NCBI GenBank assembly: GCA_036504445.1
Contig: DASXVE010000023.1
Location: forward strand, 1-64,000
From: Candidatus Aquicultor sp.
Lineage (GTDB): Bacteria; Actinomycetota; Aquicultoria; Aquicultorales; Aquicultoraceae
DNA: 64,000 nt
Direction: 5' to 3'
Made by a program: the position numbers and the translations under genes
Notes under the pieces: generated by a model
What the model was told of the DNA's origin: nothing
The model's input: the letters and a program-made list of their open reading frames with translations, nothing else
The model's database searches: none
Part shown: positions 1,833 through 40,600 of the stretch, one piece after another
Layout of the letters: the number at the start of each line of letters is the position of its first letter
Numbering within the stretch: the first letter of the stretch is position 1

Positions 1833-1951
1833 TCTTGAAACGCCTCAGATTCCTTAATTTCTGCAAATAAATATTGCCATGTTTAGCGGCCAAGTAAGTT
1901 GCCGGATTTGTGATTAAACTCCGGGATTCCGGGTATATAAATCGCCCTGAT

Positions 1952-1983
1952 CGTTCTTTGAAAAATGAACAGATTGGCCGGAC
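1952..1983 (+). promoter_or_regulatory. rRNA leader: boxA-like antitermination site and 16S processing half-stem
   Basis: CGTTCTTTGAAAAATGAACA (1952-1971) resembles the boxA/leader sequence in front of Gram-positive rrn operons, and a related CTTGTTCATTGAAAAC recurs in the spacer at 3985-4000. Immediately after it, TGGCCGGAC (1975-1983) is perfectly complementary to GTCCGGCCA at 3768-3776 beyond the 16S-like RNA. This gives the 9-bp stem expected for RNase III-type processing. I see no convincing -35/-10 pair upstream; TATATAA near 1934-1940 is a possible -10. Confidence 0.6.
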
Positions 1984-2045
1984 AAAAACCAAAAATATTA
2001 ATCTTGTTACCTCGCTTGTGATGCCTGGCATCCAGTGAGGTTTAT

Positions 2046-3690
2046 TAATCTGCGGGTCTGGTCCCGGCCCAGGACGAACGCTGGCGGCATGCACTTGCCC
2101 CGACAAGTCGAGCGGACTGTTCCTACAATTTCTGTAACCGTAGCACGTTTGCTATGGATTAGGAAAAGGACGGTTACGCGGCGAACGGCGGAGTAACACG
2201 TAGGTGACCTGCCTCAAAGACCGGAATAACCTCACCCCGGGAGGCCCTAAAAAGGTCACTTGGGATGAGCTAATGCCGTATAAGCTCACACTGCTCATGC
2301 GGCGTGAGAAAAGGTAGCCCTTAATCAAGGCTTCCGCTTTGAGATGAGCCTGCGCCCCATCAGGCAGTTGGTGGTGTAAAAGACTACCAAGCCGATGACG
2401 GGTAGCTGGCCCGAGAGGGTGGTCAGCCCGACCGGAACTGAGACAAGGCCCGGGCCCGAAAGGGCTAGCGGGGTGGAATCTATCGCAATGCGCGAAAGCG
2501 TGACGATGCAATGCCGCGTGAAGGAAGAAAGCAGGTGAAAACACCTGTCGTAAACTCCAGTCGGTGGGGAGTAAGCGTGGCCGGTTAAGAGCCGGACCAC
2601 GTGAAAGTACCTGCCGGTAAGAGCGCCGACAAACTGCGTGCCAGCAGTCGCGGTCAAACGTAGGGCGCAAGCGTTGTCCGGAATTACTGGGCGTAAAGGG
2701 TACGTAGGCGGCTTGGGCGTATCGGCTGTGAAAGCCCTCCGCAAAACGGAGGAAGGGCAGCCGAGATTACTCGGCTAGAGCCCGGCGGAAGGAAGTGGAA
2801 CTTCCGATGTAGCAGTAAAATGCGTTGATATCGGAAAGAACCCCAAACGGCGAAGGCAGCTTCCTATACCGTGGCTGACGCTAAAGTACGAAAGCCAGGG
2901 GAGCGATGCGGTTTGGTACCCGCGTAGTCCTGGCTGTAAAAGATGGGCACTAGCTCCCGACCCTCAGGAAGGCCGGAGGCGAAGCTAACGCATTAAGTGC
3001 CCCGCCTGGGGAGTACGGCCGCAAGGCTGAAAACCAAGGGACTTGTGGAAACCTGCACAATCGGCGGCGAGTGTGGTTTAATGCGATTTCGAGCGCAGAA
3101 TCTTACCAAGGTCGCCCGTGCGTGAAAGCCGGTGGAAACACTGGCATGCCGTTCAAACTGTGGGCAACCCACGGTGACGCGGAAACTCGCACAGGCAGGC
3201 ATGAATGGTCACCGTCAGCCCGTGCCGTGAGGCGTGAGGTCAAATCCTCGTAACGGGCGCAACCCCTTACCCCATGTTGCCATCGGACACACGCCGGGCA
3301 CTCATAGGGGACTGCCCGCGTTCGAAGTGGGAGGAAGGCGGGGACGACGGCAGATCCGTATGTGCTGAGTACCTTGGGCTACACACACGCGACAGTGATC
3401 GGGACAAAGAGGGCCGATCCCGCGAGGGGGAGGAAATCTCAAAAAACCGACCGAGGTACGGATTGCAGTCTGGAACCCGACTGCATGAAGATGAAGCCGA
3501 TAGTAATCGCAGATCATCAAGCTGCGGTGAATACGTTCTCAGGTTTTCTTCATATTGCCGGCCGCATCCGCCATAGAAGAAGCAGCTGAAGCTACGCGGC
3601 CCAACCGGACCCCAGCGGGCCTCATTTTTGAGGTTTACTGGGACCCGGAGGACGGTAGCGAGGCTGCTCCGACGAGGCGGTCGTAGGATG
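2046..3690 (+). rRNA. 16S-like rRNA with altered functional centres
   Basis: Homology to 16S rRNA is unmistakable along its length (AGGACGAACGCTGGCGGCAT near 2071, GGAATTACTGGGCGTAAAGG near 2680, GAAGCTAACGCATTAAGTG near 2982), at about 1645 nt. It departs from consensus at sites that are nearly invariant in life. The 27F, 515F, 806R and 926R priming sites all carry changes. The 790 loop is UUUGGUAC (2912-2919). The C1400/A1408 strand and the A1492/A1493 strand (3647-3655) are rewritten, the h45 tetraloop is CGAC (3670-3673), and CCUCC is absent at the 3' end. Helices are kept by paired changes: h1 2054-2058/2066-2070, pseudoknot 2062-2064/3038-3040, h18 2629/2648, h24 2908-2911/2920-2923, h28 3049-3055/3540-3546, h31 3082-3085/3094-3097. 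Numbering follows E. coli, aligned by eye from memory. I infer a paralogous, structure-conserved RNA rather than the cell's working 16S. Confidence 0.9.
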
Positions 3691-4021
3691 GGCATACTGC
3701 CCGTACCGAGAGGTGTGGGCGTAAACTTGGAGCTCAGGCTCTTCTTTTAAGATGCCAAAAGCTCGATGTCCGGCCAGGAGTTCCGGCTCCGGGTTCCCCC
3801 GGGGGCAACCCCCAGGCAACACCCGTCCGGACGATCTCCAAGGTTTGCACATAAACCTTGGGGCTGAAGGTTCAAGGCTAAAAGTCCAATGGTGAAGATG
3901 CCGATTTTCATTGTTGGGTGGGGCCGAGCAGCCCAACCAGCCTTGAGCCTTGAGCCCGCACGGCGCGTAAACCGTGCGTCTCACCTTGTTCATTGAAAAC
4001 AATATAGCGTGCATTAGAAAG
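3691..4021 (+). other. 16S-23S spacer without tRNA; second boxA-like site and processing stems
   Basis: No tRNA can be folded here. The spacer carries GTCCGGCCA (3768-3776), pairing with the leader. It has a stem of GGTTCAAGGCT with AGCCTTGAGCC (about 3869-3955), a GCACGG/CCGTGC hairpin (about 3959-3979), and a boxA-like CTTGTTCATTGAAAAC (3985-4000). ATAGCGTGCA (4004-4013) is perfectly complementary to TGCACGCTAT at 7271-7280 beyond the 23S-like RNA, the expected 23S processing stem. Keeping these parts argues that the locus is still transcribed and processed as one precursor. Confidence 0.7.
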
Positions 4022-7261
<3,240 letters not shown>

Positions 7262-7311
7262 TTAACCTAGTGCACGCTATTTCTTTTGATAATTCTATAA
7301 ATATATAACCC

Positions 7312-7346
7312 AAAAAGCTGTTCACTGATTGCGAACAGCTTTTTTA
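7312..7346 (+). terminator. intrinsic terminator of the rRNA-like operon
   Basis: AGCTGTTC (7316-7323) pairs with GAACAGCT (7333-7340) across a 9-base loop, preceded by A5 and followed by T-rich sequence. It closes the operon directly after the 23S processing stem, leaving no room for a 5S gene. The remaining bases to 7557 show nothing I recognise. Confidence 0.85.
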
Positions 7347-27373: not shown

Positions 27374-27751
27374 TAATATTCTCCAAATAGGGAGAACATA
27401 GCTGTAATGCTAAAGGCTATGAAGGGGAGTAGTAAGCTTTCTTACTGTAGGAGCGAGCCGGGGATGGTGCGAAGCCGGTACAAGACGAAAGCCGAATGTC
27501 GCCCCGGAGCCGGCCACCTGAACAGCAATAGGGTTGATAATGATAAGGTTTATAACCATAGCGCTTAGTAGTTTGGCCCGTGATATCCGCGTTACGGATA
27601 CAAGTGCAGCACGCCCGTAAACCAAGAGATAATGAAATAGCTTGGCGAAGAAACGCCCGGTTACGTAAGAGTCGGTTTGGCGCGCTGAAGTTGGGTGGTA
27701 CCGCGTGAGAATCCTCTCGTCCCATATGGGGCTGAGAGGTTTTTATTTTTT
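27374..27751 (+). promoter_or_regulatory. T-box riboswitch leader of ilvD operon, probable valine specifier
   Basis: The T-box sequence AAGTTGGGTGGTACCGCG (27688-27705) is present in full. Downstream, CCTCTC/GAGAGG with an inner CCC/GGG stem and T-run (27713-27750) forms the terminator that competes with the antiterminator. Stem I upstream has the usual AGCGAGCCGGGGATGGTGCG distal part (near 27452-27471). In the specifier loop GAATGTCGCCCCGGAG, the likely codon is GTC 27498-27500 (Val); reading one base off is possible. Uncharged tRNA would switch on ilvD and the genes behind it. Confidence 0.92.
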
Positions 27752-37075: not shown

Positions 37076-37921
37076 AATTCGCCTCTAGCGCATCGTGTGT
37101 TTTCTGATTACTACAGGTGTTTTAGGAAAGAAGGGTATATATGTATCACCACGGCTTAATAATACTATAGGGTTACCGTGATATCAAACTTTTGGTGGAA
37201 ACAAGCCAACGGAGTTAGCTTGTTGAGCGCTAATCAAATATATCAGGAAGATTTTCAAAATATTTTCAAATATAGTGTAAGGTATTACGTGATATAACGT
37301 TGTATATAGTAGCAGCAGCAAAATCGTATACCCTACCGGGTAGCCTATATTTGGAGATACACATAGATATGCGGTACGTAAGCATGGTACCGCATATTGC
37401 TTCTAGCGCCATTTTATACTGCAAAATATTATCACATCGCCTCAAGACAAGGTCGCTTGCCTATTAGCGCTGCTCACATATCCTTTCGAAAACAGATACC
37501 CCTATAATAATTGATTGTTTCGTGAAGACTTGTACAAATACTTGTAACAAAAGTGTAAGAAAGAATGGCAGCTTACGTTTTAACTAGGTAGACGCTTAAA
37601 AGTAGGGCATGGAAATATCAAACGAATAAAGAAAGACTGGAGAGATACCAGCTCTCCAGTCGAGTGCAAAGAAACCTGGGACAGGCTTCGATTTGCTTTT
37701 CTATTTTATCAAGAAAGCAAGCTTGTATTCAACACTTTGAAAGCAAGCATACTTTGATTAACTGCGGACATCTCAAGACTCCTATCCCAAAAACTTTGCG
37801 GCACATTGTATTTTCGTATGCAATCCCGTTGCTCAAGCGGGTGTAAATCTAGCTAAGAAGGGAGGGGTTTAAAAGAATGATTGAGCGCTTAATAATAGGG
37901 AATTACAAGGGAGGAAATTTC
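37076..37921 (+). other. long non-coding leader between sigma gene and cytochrome gene
   Basis: No supportable gene in 846 bases. Perfect hairpins are visible: ATATGCGGTAC/GTACCGCATAT (37369-37399, 11 bp), GACTGGAGAG/CTCTCCAGTC (37634-37660, 10 bp), a nested GCAAA ... CCTG/CAGG ... TTTGC (37667-37697) and CCCG/CGGG near 37827-37843. The second half looks like a structured 5' leader of the cytochrome mRNA, but I could not match it to c-di-GMP, T-box or other riboswitch consensus. Confidence 0.5.
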
Positions 37922-40600
37922 GTGAGAAAGCATTTTATAACACTGGCCATCTTAGTAATTGCGGCGATGGTTCTGTGCGCTCCGGCGGCATTTGCGGCGG
38001 CTCCGACGGTAACAATTACCACTCCTGCCAGCGGAGCAACCGTTGCGGGAACGATACCGATCAATGCCACCTGTGCAGCCTCCGGTGCGACAATTAGTAG
38101 CGCAAGCTACCAGATCGACGGCGGCGTTGCGGTTAGCATGTCGGGCCCAACCGGCGCTGCATCGGGTACCTGGACAAGCTGGTGGGACACAAGCAAAGTT
38201 ACCAACGCCAGCCATACCATTAAAGTTACAACCACAGATTCACTCGGTGTAACCGGATCGGCTCAAATCACCGTTACGGCAAACAATCCAACTCCGGCGC
38301 CGCCAACAGTTAAAATTACGGCTCCGACAGCGGGCGCTACGGTTGTCGGCAGCAACGTTGCCATCACCGCTGATTGCACCGGGGGTAGCGGCTACACTGT
38401 AACCGATGTGTCGTATAAAATCGGTACCGGCACACCGCAGGTCATGGCGGGCCCGGACGGCTCTATTGCCGGCACCTGGAACAGCCTGTGGGACACCACC
38501 AAGGAGAAAAACGCTACATATACGCTCGCTGTGACCGTAACCAACTCCGCGGGCAAGACGGCGACGGCAAGCATCTCGGTCAAGGTAAACAACTCGTCAT
38601 CAACATTGAGCATTCAAACGGTATCGAACAAGTACCGGTATAATCCGAGCAATGTTGTTGTCGTCAGGGCTATTGCGCAAAATGGCCTCAACAGGCTCAC
38701 AAGCGGGCGCATCAGCACTGCTAAAGTTACCATCAAAGATCCGGCTAACAAGGTTATTGTTAACGCCGTTGCTATGAGCAAAGACTCAACGACCGGGTTC
38801 ATGTTCTATAGCTATACGCTCCCAGCAGCACCGGCAAAGGGTGTCTGGACTGTTAGCGTAGCTGTTACGGATACACGTGCCTGGACTGGTACCGGTACCA
38901 ACACCTTTAAGGTAGAGCTTCCGGTTCCGGATCACTCGCAGTACATCACTGCTAGCAATCCATACCTGGGCACCAAGACCTGTATCACCAGTGCTTGCCA
39001 TGCAACACAGGCAAACACAATGTTTAGCTCGCTTCACTATCAGTGGAGAGGAGACAACTCGAAAGCTATCGAGCTTGCAGGTTCAAACCCACAAGTTTCA
39101 AAGATGGGCGGTATTAACAATTACTGCGTATGGGCCGAGGGTAACTGGATCGGCACCATGACCAATCTTGACAACACCGCTAATAACAAATGCGGTTGCG
39201 CATGGTGTCATGCCGGTCTCGGTTTGAAGCCGGCGACCGTTTCAAGCCAAGCTCAGCTTGAGAACATCGACTGCTTGATCTGTCACAGCACAAGCTACAA
39301 GAGGATTGTTCAAACCAATCCAGACGGTACGTTTGTTTTAGTGCCGGATCCGACAATCGACATTCAAGCTGCCGCCAAGACTATCAGCCGTCCAACTAAA
39401 GCGACCTGCTTGCGTTGCCACGCAAACGCCGGTGGCGGCGACAACAACAAGCGCGGCGACATCGATTCAAAACTGCCAACGTGCGTCAAGAGCTATGACG
39501 TACACATGGGTACCGACGGCCAGAACTTCGAGTGCCAGGATTGCCATAGAACGATCAGTCACAAGATGGCCGGTCGCGGCAACGATATGCGAGCGGTTGA
39601 TCTTAACTTCGACATGAGCTGTGAAACCTGCCATACAAAGGTTCCGCACCGCTCAACGAACGTTAACTATAAATATCTTGATCGACATACAGACAGACTC
39701 AACTGTACGACCTGCCACGTGTCTGCTTTTGCGAAAGCAGTTTCAACGGATATGGTCAGAGACTGGAGAACGCTAGAACCGATTCCTGCTATCAACAGGT
39801 GGGATCCGACAATTACGCGTGGGTCGAATGTCATGCCAACCTATGCATGGTTCAATTCGTTTAGCCACTTCTACAAGTTCTTAGATCCGGTTACGTATGC
39901 GGCGAACGGCAAGGTACAAATGGCGTATCCGGATGGTGCATATACCGATATTCCAGGAAAACCGATGGCAAAACTGTATCCGTTTAAGGTACACGAAACC
40001 TGGCAGCCGAAGAACAACGCCGTTGGCAACAAGTTTGATAACATCTTGCTGCCGATCAGGAACAAAGTCGCCTTTGAAACCGGCGATGTCAACGCCGCTA
40101 TTATCGAGGGTACCAATATCGCAAACGTAACCTACAACGGACATACCTTCGTGCAGACGCAAAGTTACCAGAGCATCCATCACGCAGTAGGCCCGAAATC
40201 AACGGCGCTTAGCTGCGCGACTGCTACGGTTTGCCACGCGCAGCTCGGCGGCACCGTTGCAAGGATTCCGTTTAGCAGTCTCGGTTACGTAAGAAGAGGT
40301 ACCGACGCACAGCTCTGCGACGTATGCCACAGCATGCACAGCAGGTCGAGCATGTCCTTTACTTCGTTCCATGCCGAGCACAGGGACAGGAATAACTGTG
40401 CGACATGCCACGGTGTAGGCTATCCACTTAAAGAGCCGAGAACGACGCTCTGCGATAACTGCCATAGCTACAAATCAGTGTCCGACCCGAACTGGATTCA
40501 CAATAAACACGTCCAGGGCAAGGGCTACGATTGTAGTAACTGCCATACCTTTACCAGGAGTCTTACCAGTGGCGGTCACTTAAAGAGTCATGACGATTAA
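37922..40600 (+). CDS. secreted multihaem cytochrome c with Ig-like repeats
   Basis: 892 residues from GTG 37922 (GGGAGG upstream). Signal peptide (HFITLAILVIAAMVLCAPAA), then two tandem Ig-like repeats of about 90 residues (each with a TAPTAGATV/TTPASGATV start and a GTWxSxWDT core), a third beta domain, then a haem-rich region from about residue 345. Ten CxxCH motifs are present (CAWCH, CLICH, CLRCH, CQDCH, CETCH, CTTCH, CDVCH, CATCH, CDNCH, CSNCH), plus CITSACH and CATATVCH with longer spacing, so 10-12 haems. It probably carries electrons outside the cell membrane to or from an external partner. No cytochrome maturation genes adjoin. Confidence 0.92.
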   Translation: MRKHFITLAILVIAAMVLCAPAAFAAAPTVTITTPASGATVAGTIPINATCAASGATISSASYQIDGGVAVSMSGPTGAASGTWTSWWDTSKVTNASHTIKVTTTDSLGVTGSAQITVTANNPTPAPPTVKITAPTAGATVVGSNVAITADCTGGSGYTVTDVSYKIGTGTPQVMAGPDGSIAGTWNSLWDTTKEKNATYTLAVTVTNSAGKTATASISVKVNNSSSTLSIQTVSNKYRYNPSNVVVVRAIAQNGLNRLTSGRISTAKVTIKDPANKVIVNAVAMSKDSTTGFMFYSYTLPAAPAKGVWTVSVAVTDTRAWTGTGTNTFKVELPVPDHSQYITASNPYLGTKTCITSACHATQANTMFSSLHYQWRGDNSKAIELAGSNPQVSKMGGINNYCVWAEGNWIGTMTNLDNTANNKCGCAWCHAGLGLKPATVSSQAQLENIDCLICHSTSYKRIVQTNPDGTFVLVPDPTIDIQAAAKTISRPTKATCLRCHANAGGGDNNKRGDIDSKLPTCVKSYDVHMGTDGQNFECQDCHRTISHKMAGRGNDMRAVDLNFDMSCETCHTKVPHRSTNVNYKYLDRHTDRLNCTTCHVSAFAKAVSTDMVRDWRTLEPIPAINRWDPTITRGSNVMPTYAWFNSFSHFYKFLDPVTYAANGKVQMAYPDGAYTDIPGKPMAKLYPFKVHETWQPKNNAVGNKFDNILLPIRNKVAFETGDVNAAIIEGTNIANVTYNGHTFVQTQSYQSIHHAVGPKSTALSCATATVCHAQLGGTVARIPFSSLGYVRRGTDAQLCDVCHSMHSRSSMSFTSFHAEHRDRNNCATCHGVGYPLKEPRTTLCDNCHSYKSVSDPNWIHNKHVQGKGYDCSNCHTFTRSLTSGGHLKSHDD

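Follow-up and report, generated by a model that had tools for sequence, protein, structure and literature searches.

The window, that is, the whole 64,000-nucleotide stretch of Candidatus Aquicultor DNA analysed here, carries a complete and highly divergent rRNA operon. Judged from its sequence and location, this is a paralogous second operon, inherited vertically within one order of uncultured Actinomycetota and standing beside a normal one. The divergent copies form one clade, occupy one chromosomal site in four genera, have a compensated fold and share derived bases at functional sites, and these bases fall at the decoding, tRNA-binding, peptidyl-transfer and factor-binding sites. The explanation that we somewhat favour is that an old rRNA duplicate has been kept for its folded form, as a ribosome-like RNA that most likely would not take part in standard translation.

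The operon comprises the following elements:

1914-1941, forward strand: sigma70-like promoter (TTAAAC, 16 nt, TATAAA), read by eye, with matching sites in relatives
1954-1965, forward strand: boxA-like antitermination element 5' of the 16S, TTCTTTGAAAAA (ATCTTTGAAAA in G001 and G005)
1974-1984, forward strand: 5' strand of the 16S processing stem, TTGGCCGGACA, complementary to 3767-3776
2046-3729, forward strand: divergent 16S-like rRNA, full-length match to Rfam SSU_rRNA_bacteria (RF00177, model 1-1533, 1012 bits)
3767-3776, forward strand: 3' strand of the 16S processing stem, TGTCCGGCCA, complementary to 1974-1984
3780-3832, forward strand: conserved hairpin in the spacer, where tRNA genes usually stand, GTTCCGGCTCCGGGTTCCCC..GGGCAACCC..GGAACACCCG, in four of four family copies
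3989-3999, forward strand: boxA-like element 5' of the 23S (TGCTCTTTAACAA / GTTCTTTAAAAA in relatives)
4001-4017, forward strand: 5' strand of the 23S processing stem, AATATAGCGTGCATTAG, complementary to 7267-7281
4026-7258, forward strand: divergent 23S-like rRNA, full-length match to Rfam RF02541 (model 1-2925, 2109 bits)
7267-7281, forward strand: 3' strand of the 23S processing stem, CTAGTGCACGCTATT, complementary to 4001-4017
7312-7346, forward strand: intrinsic terminator 3' of the operon (hairpin and T run)

Against the same models, normal 16S relatives score 1450-1617 bits and the 23S of the best intact relatives 2700-2830 bits. The divergent 16S differs from normal 16S by about 33%, being 66-69% identical to a normal member of the family. 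Nevertheless, the full-length SSU fold with its central pseudoknot is present in the window 16S, as indicated by the RF00177 span and the pairs kept, and the 23S has the full-length LSU fold, with compensated changes in domains V-VI. A search of the 16S-23S spacer of the window operon for tRNA genes found none, and a 5S is part of the divergent operon in G001. Promoter, boxA elements, stems, hairpin and terminator were read by eye in alignments and are unscored. The promoter agrees in position and in its GGGT(A/G)T core with promoter-like sites in G001, G009 and G004, and the terminators of G001, G009 and G005 are alike in form and different in sequence. The inverted repeats flanking each rRNA are candidate RNase III stems that recur in relatives; the 16S stem of G005 reads CTAGGCCGGA/TCCGGCCTAG, a compensated difference.

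Other features of the window were also recorded. Just 5' of the operon, at 1626-1830, lies an element that looks like a structured RNA, some 185-200 nt long, closed by a stem and followed by a T-run terminator. Six relatives have it at 74-78% identity, although two of these six lack the divergent operon. No Rfam family fits this element, and its identification as 6S was rejected; the 6S of this genome lies on contig C11. Further downstream, a T-box leader (27410-27727) stands 5' of an ilvD-like gene inside a long branched-chain amino acid cluster, and 37877-40600 encodes a protein of 907 aa whose many CxxCH-like motifs suggest that it is probably a multihaem cytochrome that is secreted.

The same genome (G000) carries a standard rRNA operon on contig C10, beside murA. 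Of this operon, the 16S and the greater part of the 23S lie inside a 5000-N gap, after which the 3' end of the 23S and then the 5S are readable; this 23S end has intact peptidyl transferase and sarcin-ricin sequences (GGGGAUAACAGG and AGUACGAGAGGA) and is 94-96% identical to that of relatives. The contig G000:C21 (L049), 3087 bases long and bearing a normal-type 23S, was dropped as the normal 23S of the window genome, being only 90% identical to the C10 23S end, and is possibly foreign to the MAG. Divergent and normal types also occur together in G001 and G005. The divergent operon lies between the same neighbour genes in G000, G001, G005 and G009, which represent four genera of one family, while the contigs of G002, G004 and G007 terminate at or near the site, and in G003 and G006 the site is closed and the operon missing. 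In genus g4 the operon is absent from a closed site, and is thus dispensable there. In the second family of the order, G011 has a divergent 16S split over contigs C53 and C5, and a divergent 23S was not found in this genome. One of its pieces (L024, G011:C53:1-722) consists of divergent 16S followed by a normal-type 23S fragment on the opposite strand, and is likely a chimeric contig. The 24 other genomes searched in the class, and its other families, gave normal-type matches only or none, and a scan of genome contigs for the divergent type recovered three known members, the named records being Actinomycetota MAGs. In the tree, the five divergent 16S sequences form one clade with support of 100 and a stem branch of 0.42, inside Actinomycetota, the attachment point being left unplaced. 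Normal 23S loci of relatives (L026, L054, L059 and others) contain large insertions, and group I introns were detected in three of them; the divergent 23S copies yielded none.

Functional sites at which the divergent rRNAs depart from normal ribosomal RNA are these:

3549-3569, forward strand: 5' side of the decoding region, UUCAUAUUGCCGGCCGCAUCC replacing GUACACACCGCCCGUCACACC, the derived sequence conserved in five of five divergent copies
3674-3690, forward strand: 3' side of the decoding region with A1492/A1493 replaced, GGCGGUCGUAGG for GGUGAAGUCGUAAC, without AA in either alignment
6303, forward strand: H69 site A1913 changed to G, in four of four copies
6625-6626, forward strand: P-loop G2251 and G2252 changed to U (2251 is U in four of four copies; 2252 is U in three and G in G001)
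6827-6828, forward strand: peptidyl transferase centre, A2451 changed to U and C2452 to G (2452 is A in relatives)
7028-7042, forward strand: sarcin-ricin loop, AGUACGCAAGGA replacing AGUACGAGAGGA, with G2661A in all four copies

Depending on the alignment, A1492/A1493 are represented by C/U and G or by U and C, and AA occurs in none of the five copies. A new covarying h44 helix closing the decoding loop was considered and rejected; two registers explain the variation equally, and the claim is therefore limited to the adenines having been lost. The anti-Shine-Dalgarno CCUCC is absent from the 3' end of all five divergent copies, and present in the normal relatives save two atypical ends. L025 (G011:C50:8054-9508) and L019 (G044:C28) are otherwise normal 16S genes with an unusual 3' sequence and no anti-Shine-Dalgarno, and may be either assembly joints or further variants. 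In the 23S, both 2251 and 2451 are U in all four copies, which also have in common A1913G, C2394G, A2439U, A2453G, U2504A, C2573U, G2583A, U2584A and G2661A; in addition, G2252, C2452, A2503 and G2553 are altered in most or all of them (G2553 in three). The sarcin-ricin GAGA has become GCAA, or GAAA in G005. Positions that we assign to the translation centres on the basis of known ribosome contacts are altered at roughly four times the frequency seen at the remaining invariant positions (19/71 versus 138/1662 in the 23S, p 7e-6; 10/29 versus 86/752 in the 16S, p 0.001).

The main rival to the explanation given above is a specialised ribosome that still translates, with an unusual decoding and peptidyl-transfer centre, and serves particular mRNAs or conditions. 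There is a precedent in the functional divergent operon rrnI of Vibrio, whose divergent ribosomes translate (PMC10697612). The full set of operon signals, the 5S of G001 and the long conservation agree with this possibility, as does a second complete operon with vertical inheritance, apparent from synteny and clade. Moreover, G530, G926, A1339, U2506 and the A2450-C2063-C2501 pocket are retained, which is compatible with some ribosomal activity and counts against the explanation that we favour. However, intact functional centres, a mark of specialised-ribosome operons, are not found. Codon-monitoring A1492/A1493 are altered together with bases that hold the tRNA CCA end (G2251 in all copies, G2252 and G2553 in three each), and the anti-Shine-Dalgarno is gone. 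In E. coli, A1492G/A1493G is dominant lethal (PMC5270523) and G2251, G2252 and G2553 are essential, although A2451U alone reduces activity without abolishing it (PMC7049736). A second set of ribosomal proteins, sought via uS12, was not apparent either, with a single uS12 gene in the genome. Taken together, we consider a translating specialised ribosome unlikely.

It is well supported that the fold of the divergent rRNA is under selection. An earlier sequence-only reading had reached this view from helix 1 and the central pseudoknot of the 16S; the view stands, on the basis of the whole molecule and its relatives rather than of those two elements, which are located as follows:

2054-2070 (2054-2058/2066-2070), forward strand: helix 1, GGGUC/GGCCC, with pair 10-24 passing from A-U through G-U to G-C across homologues
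2062-2065, forward strand: 5' strand of the pseudoknot, UCCC (E. coli 17-20), pairing with 3038-3041; pair 20-915 goes from U-A to C-G in five of five
3038-3041, forward strand: 3' strand of the pseudoknot, GGGA (E. coli 915-918), placed by structural alignment

Helix 1 has exactly the sequence that had been reported. For the pseudoknot, UCC (2062-2064) had been paired with GGG (3038-3040); the long-range pairing is borne out, but the structural alignment shifts the register by one and replaces this arrangement, which contains a U-G wobble. As GGGA corresponds to E. coli 915-918, it forms four Watson-Crick pairs with UCCC (U2062-A3041, C2063-G3040, C2064-G3039 and C2065-G3038). The proposal that both sides changed together holds at 20-915, where U-A in 18 of 18 normal sequences and in E. 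coli is C-G in all five divergent copies. It fails at 19-916, since C19-G916, present in every one of the 18 normal Actinomycetota 16S used for comparison, is the phylum norm. E. coli has A19-U916 instead, and the pair, unchanged at this locus, seemed derived because E. coli was the sole comparison. A second derived pair is 10-24, which is A-U (15) or G-U (3) in normal sequences, G-C in four divergent copies and, as an intermediate, G-U in the outgroup divergent copy. Change on one side only, which had been named as the observation that would speak against the claim, is seen in none of the five homologues at these two derived pairs; U13-G21 has become C13-G21 by a one-sided change that retains pairing.

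For the whole 16S, the pairing test was based on 458 E. coli pairs from Rfam model lines. In the window copy 351 of 406 pairs are canonical, versus 271±5 under independent placement of the same substitutions (z 15.8), as are 67 of the 86 double-changed pairs, versus 15 expected. Because some changes may predate the duplication, the test was repeated inside the divergent clade, where compensatory changes again exceed expectation (z 7-14). The 16S comparisons within the family give 12-25 compensated pairs each against 2-5 expected (z 7.5-11), and in 23S domains V-VI 56 of 57 double changes are compensated over six comparisons, although, as branches are shared, these within-clade comparisons are not independent counts. 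Divergent 16S genes are 84-87% identical between genera of the family, whereas normal 23S 3' ends reach the 94-96% mentioned above and the fourfold sites of flanking genes in the same genome pairs are saturated (identity 0.21-0.47); the divergent copies have thus evolved faster than normal rRNA and far more slowly than unconstrained DNA. Furthermore, 80 of the 93 invariant 16S positions altered in all four copies share an identical new base.

These data bear directly on the idea that the operon is a pseudogene in decay, in which an old rRNA duplicate has lost its function and drifts. Such decay would account for the evolution faster than that of the normal operon, the loss of universal bases and the absence from genus g4. 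Nevertheless, we strongly disfavour it and regard it as highly improbable, because the operon does not display the lack of purifying and structural selection that defines a pseudogene: its identity persists beside neighbours with saturated fourfold sites, compensatory changes within the clade lie far above expectation, derived bases are conserved, and promoter, boxA, processing stems and terminators are all retained. We give equally little credence to a pair of free regulatory RNAs acting outside ribosome-like particles, for instance by titrating single ribosomal proteins, RNases or modification enzymes. This would fit the retention of folding domains and the loss of tRNA and mRNA sites, but both rRNAs appear to have been kept end to end, including helices without a role in binding any single protein, and such whole-length retention points to the assembly of whole subunits. 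Acquisition by horizontal transfer from a very divergent lineage that has not been sampled, or an assembly or binning artefact, to which the long stem branch and the unfixed attachment within Actinomycetota might point, is extremely improbable given the same locus and neighbours in independent assemblies of four genera and the absence of any match in a pattern scan of viral contigs (IMG/VR), on which a viral origin was rejected as well. An ancient transfer that preceded the vertical descent is conceivable, and would leave the functional reading unchanged.

Returning to an rRNA duplicate kept for its fold, the operon would behave as an rRNA operon does in transcription, termination and processing, and the RNAs made from it would fold and associate with the one set of ribosomal proteins, giving rise to ribosome-like subunits or particles. 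As the uS12 gene is single, any such particle would share at least uS12 with the normal ribosome. The particles would neither decode nor join amino acids in the standard way, and one may guess at a non-translational role, either in sequestering or storing ribosomal proteins or factors bound to the ribosome, or as a structural decoy. That paralogous 16S and 23S build a conserved particle which no longer decodes, binds tRNA or forms peptide bonds, and which serves another task in this one order of Actinomycetota, is a proposition that we regard as evenly balanced. Apart from the retained bases, the residual activity of A2451U alone, the absence from g4 and the split 16S of G011 are counterpoints to the favoured explanation.

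If this explanation is true, selection for ribosome architecture is separable from selection for translation, and the operon offers natural data on the rRNA bases that serve structure alone. This second operon with altered translation centres is the larger point, and lay beyond the reach of the sequence-only reading. In practice, rRNA surveys and phylogenies of MAGs may pick the wrong operon, the window 16S being the sole readable 16S in this genome. A search of freely accessible journal papers found no report of the divergent operon. Among protein enzymes, catalytically dead paralogues with new roles are common; we know of no such case for ribosomal RNA. With bacterial 16S and 23S (RF00177, RF02541) the operon has in common the full-length match, the 16S-23S(-5S) order, boxA, processing stems and helix content, and unlike them it lacks A1492/A1493, the anti-Shine-Dalgarno, A2451, G2251 and G2661. 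It resembles rRNA pseudogenes in the loss of functional-site bases, and differs from them by strong purifying and structural selection and kept signals. Mitochondrial and other reduced rRNAs likewise conserve the core fold while diverging in primary sequence, but they retain the decoding adenines and the core of the peptidyl transferase centre, whereas the divergent operon has lost these and kept the peripheral scaffold. The closest parallels are Scytonema hyalinum type 1, Haloarcula rrnA and Vibrio vulnificus rrnI, each a second complete operon with its fold kept and vertical inheritance within a group. Among reported cases of 16S divergence within a genome, indels aside, the 7.3-9.0% of Scytonema is the largest that we found (PMC5658200), as compared with about 33% here, together with altered universal translation sites.
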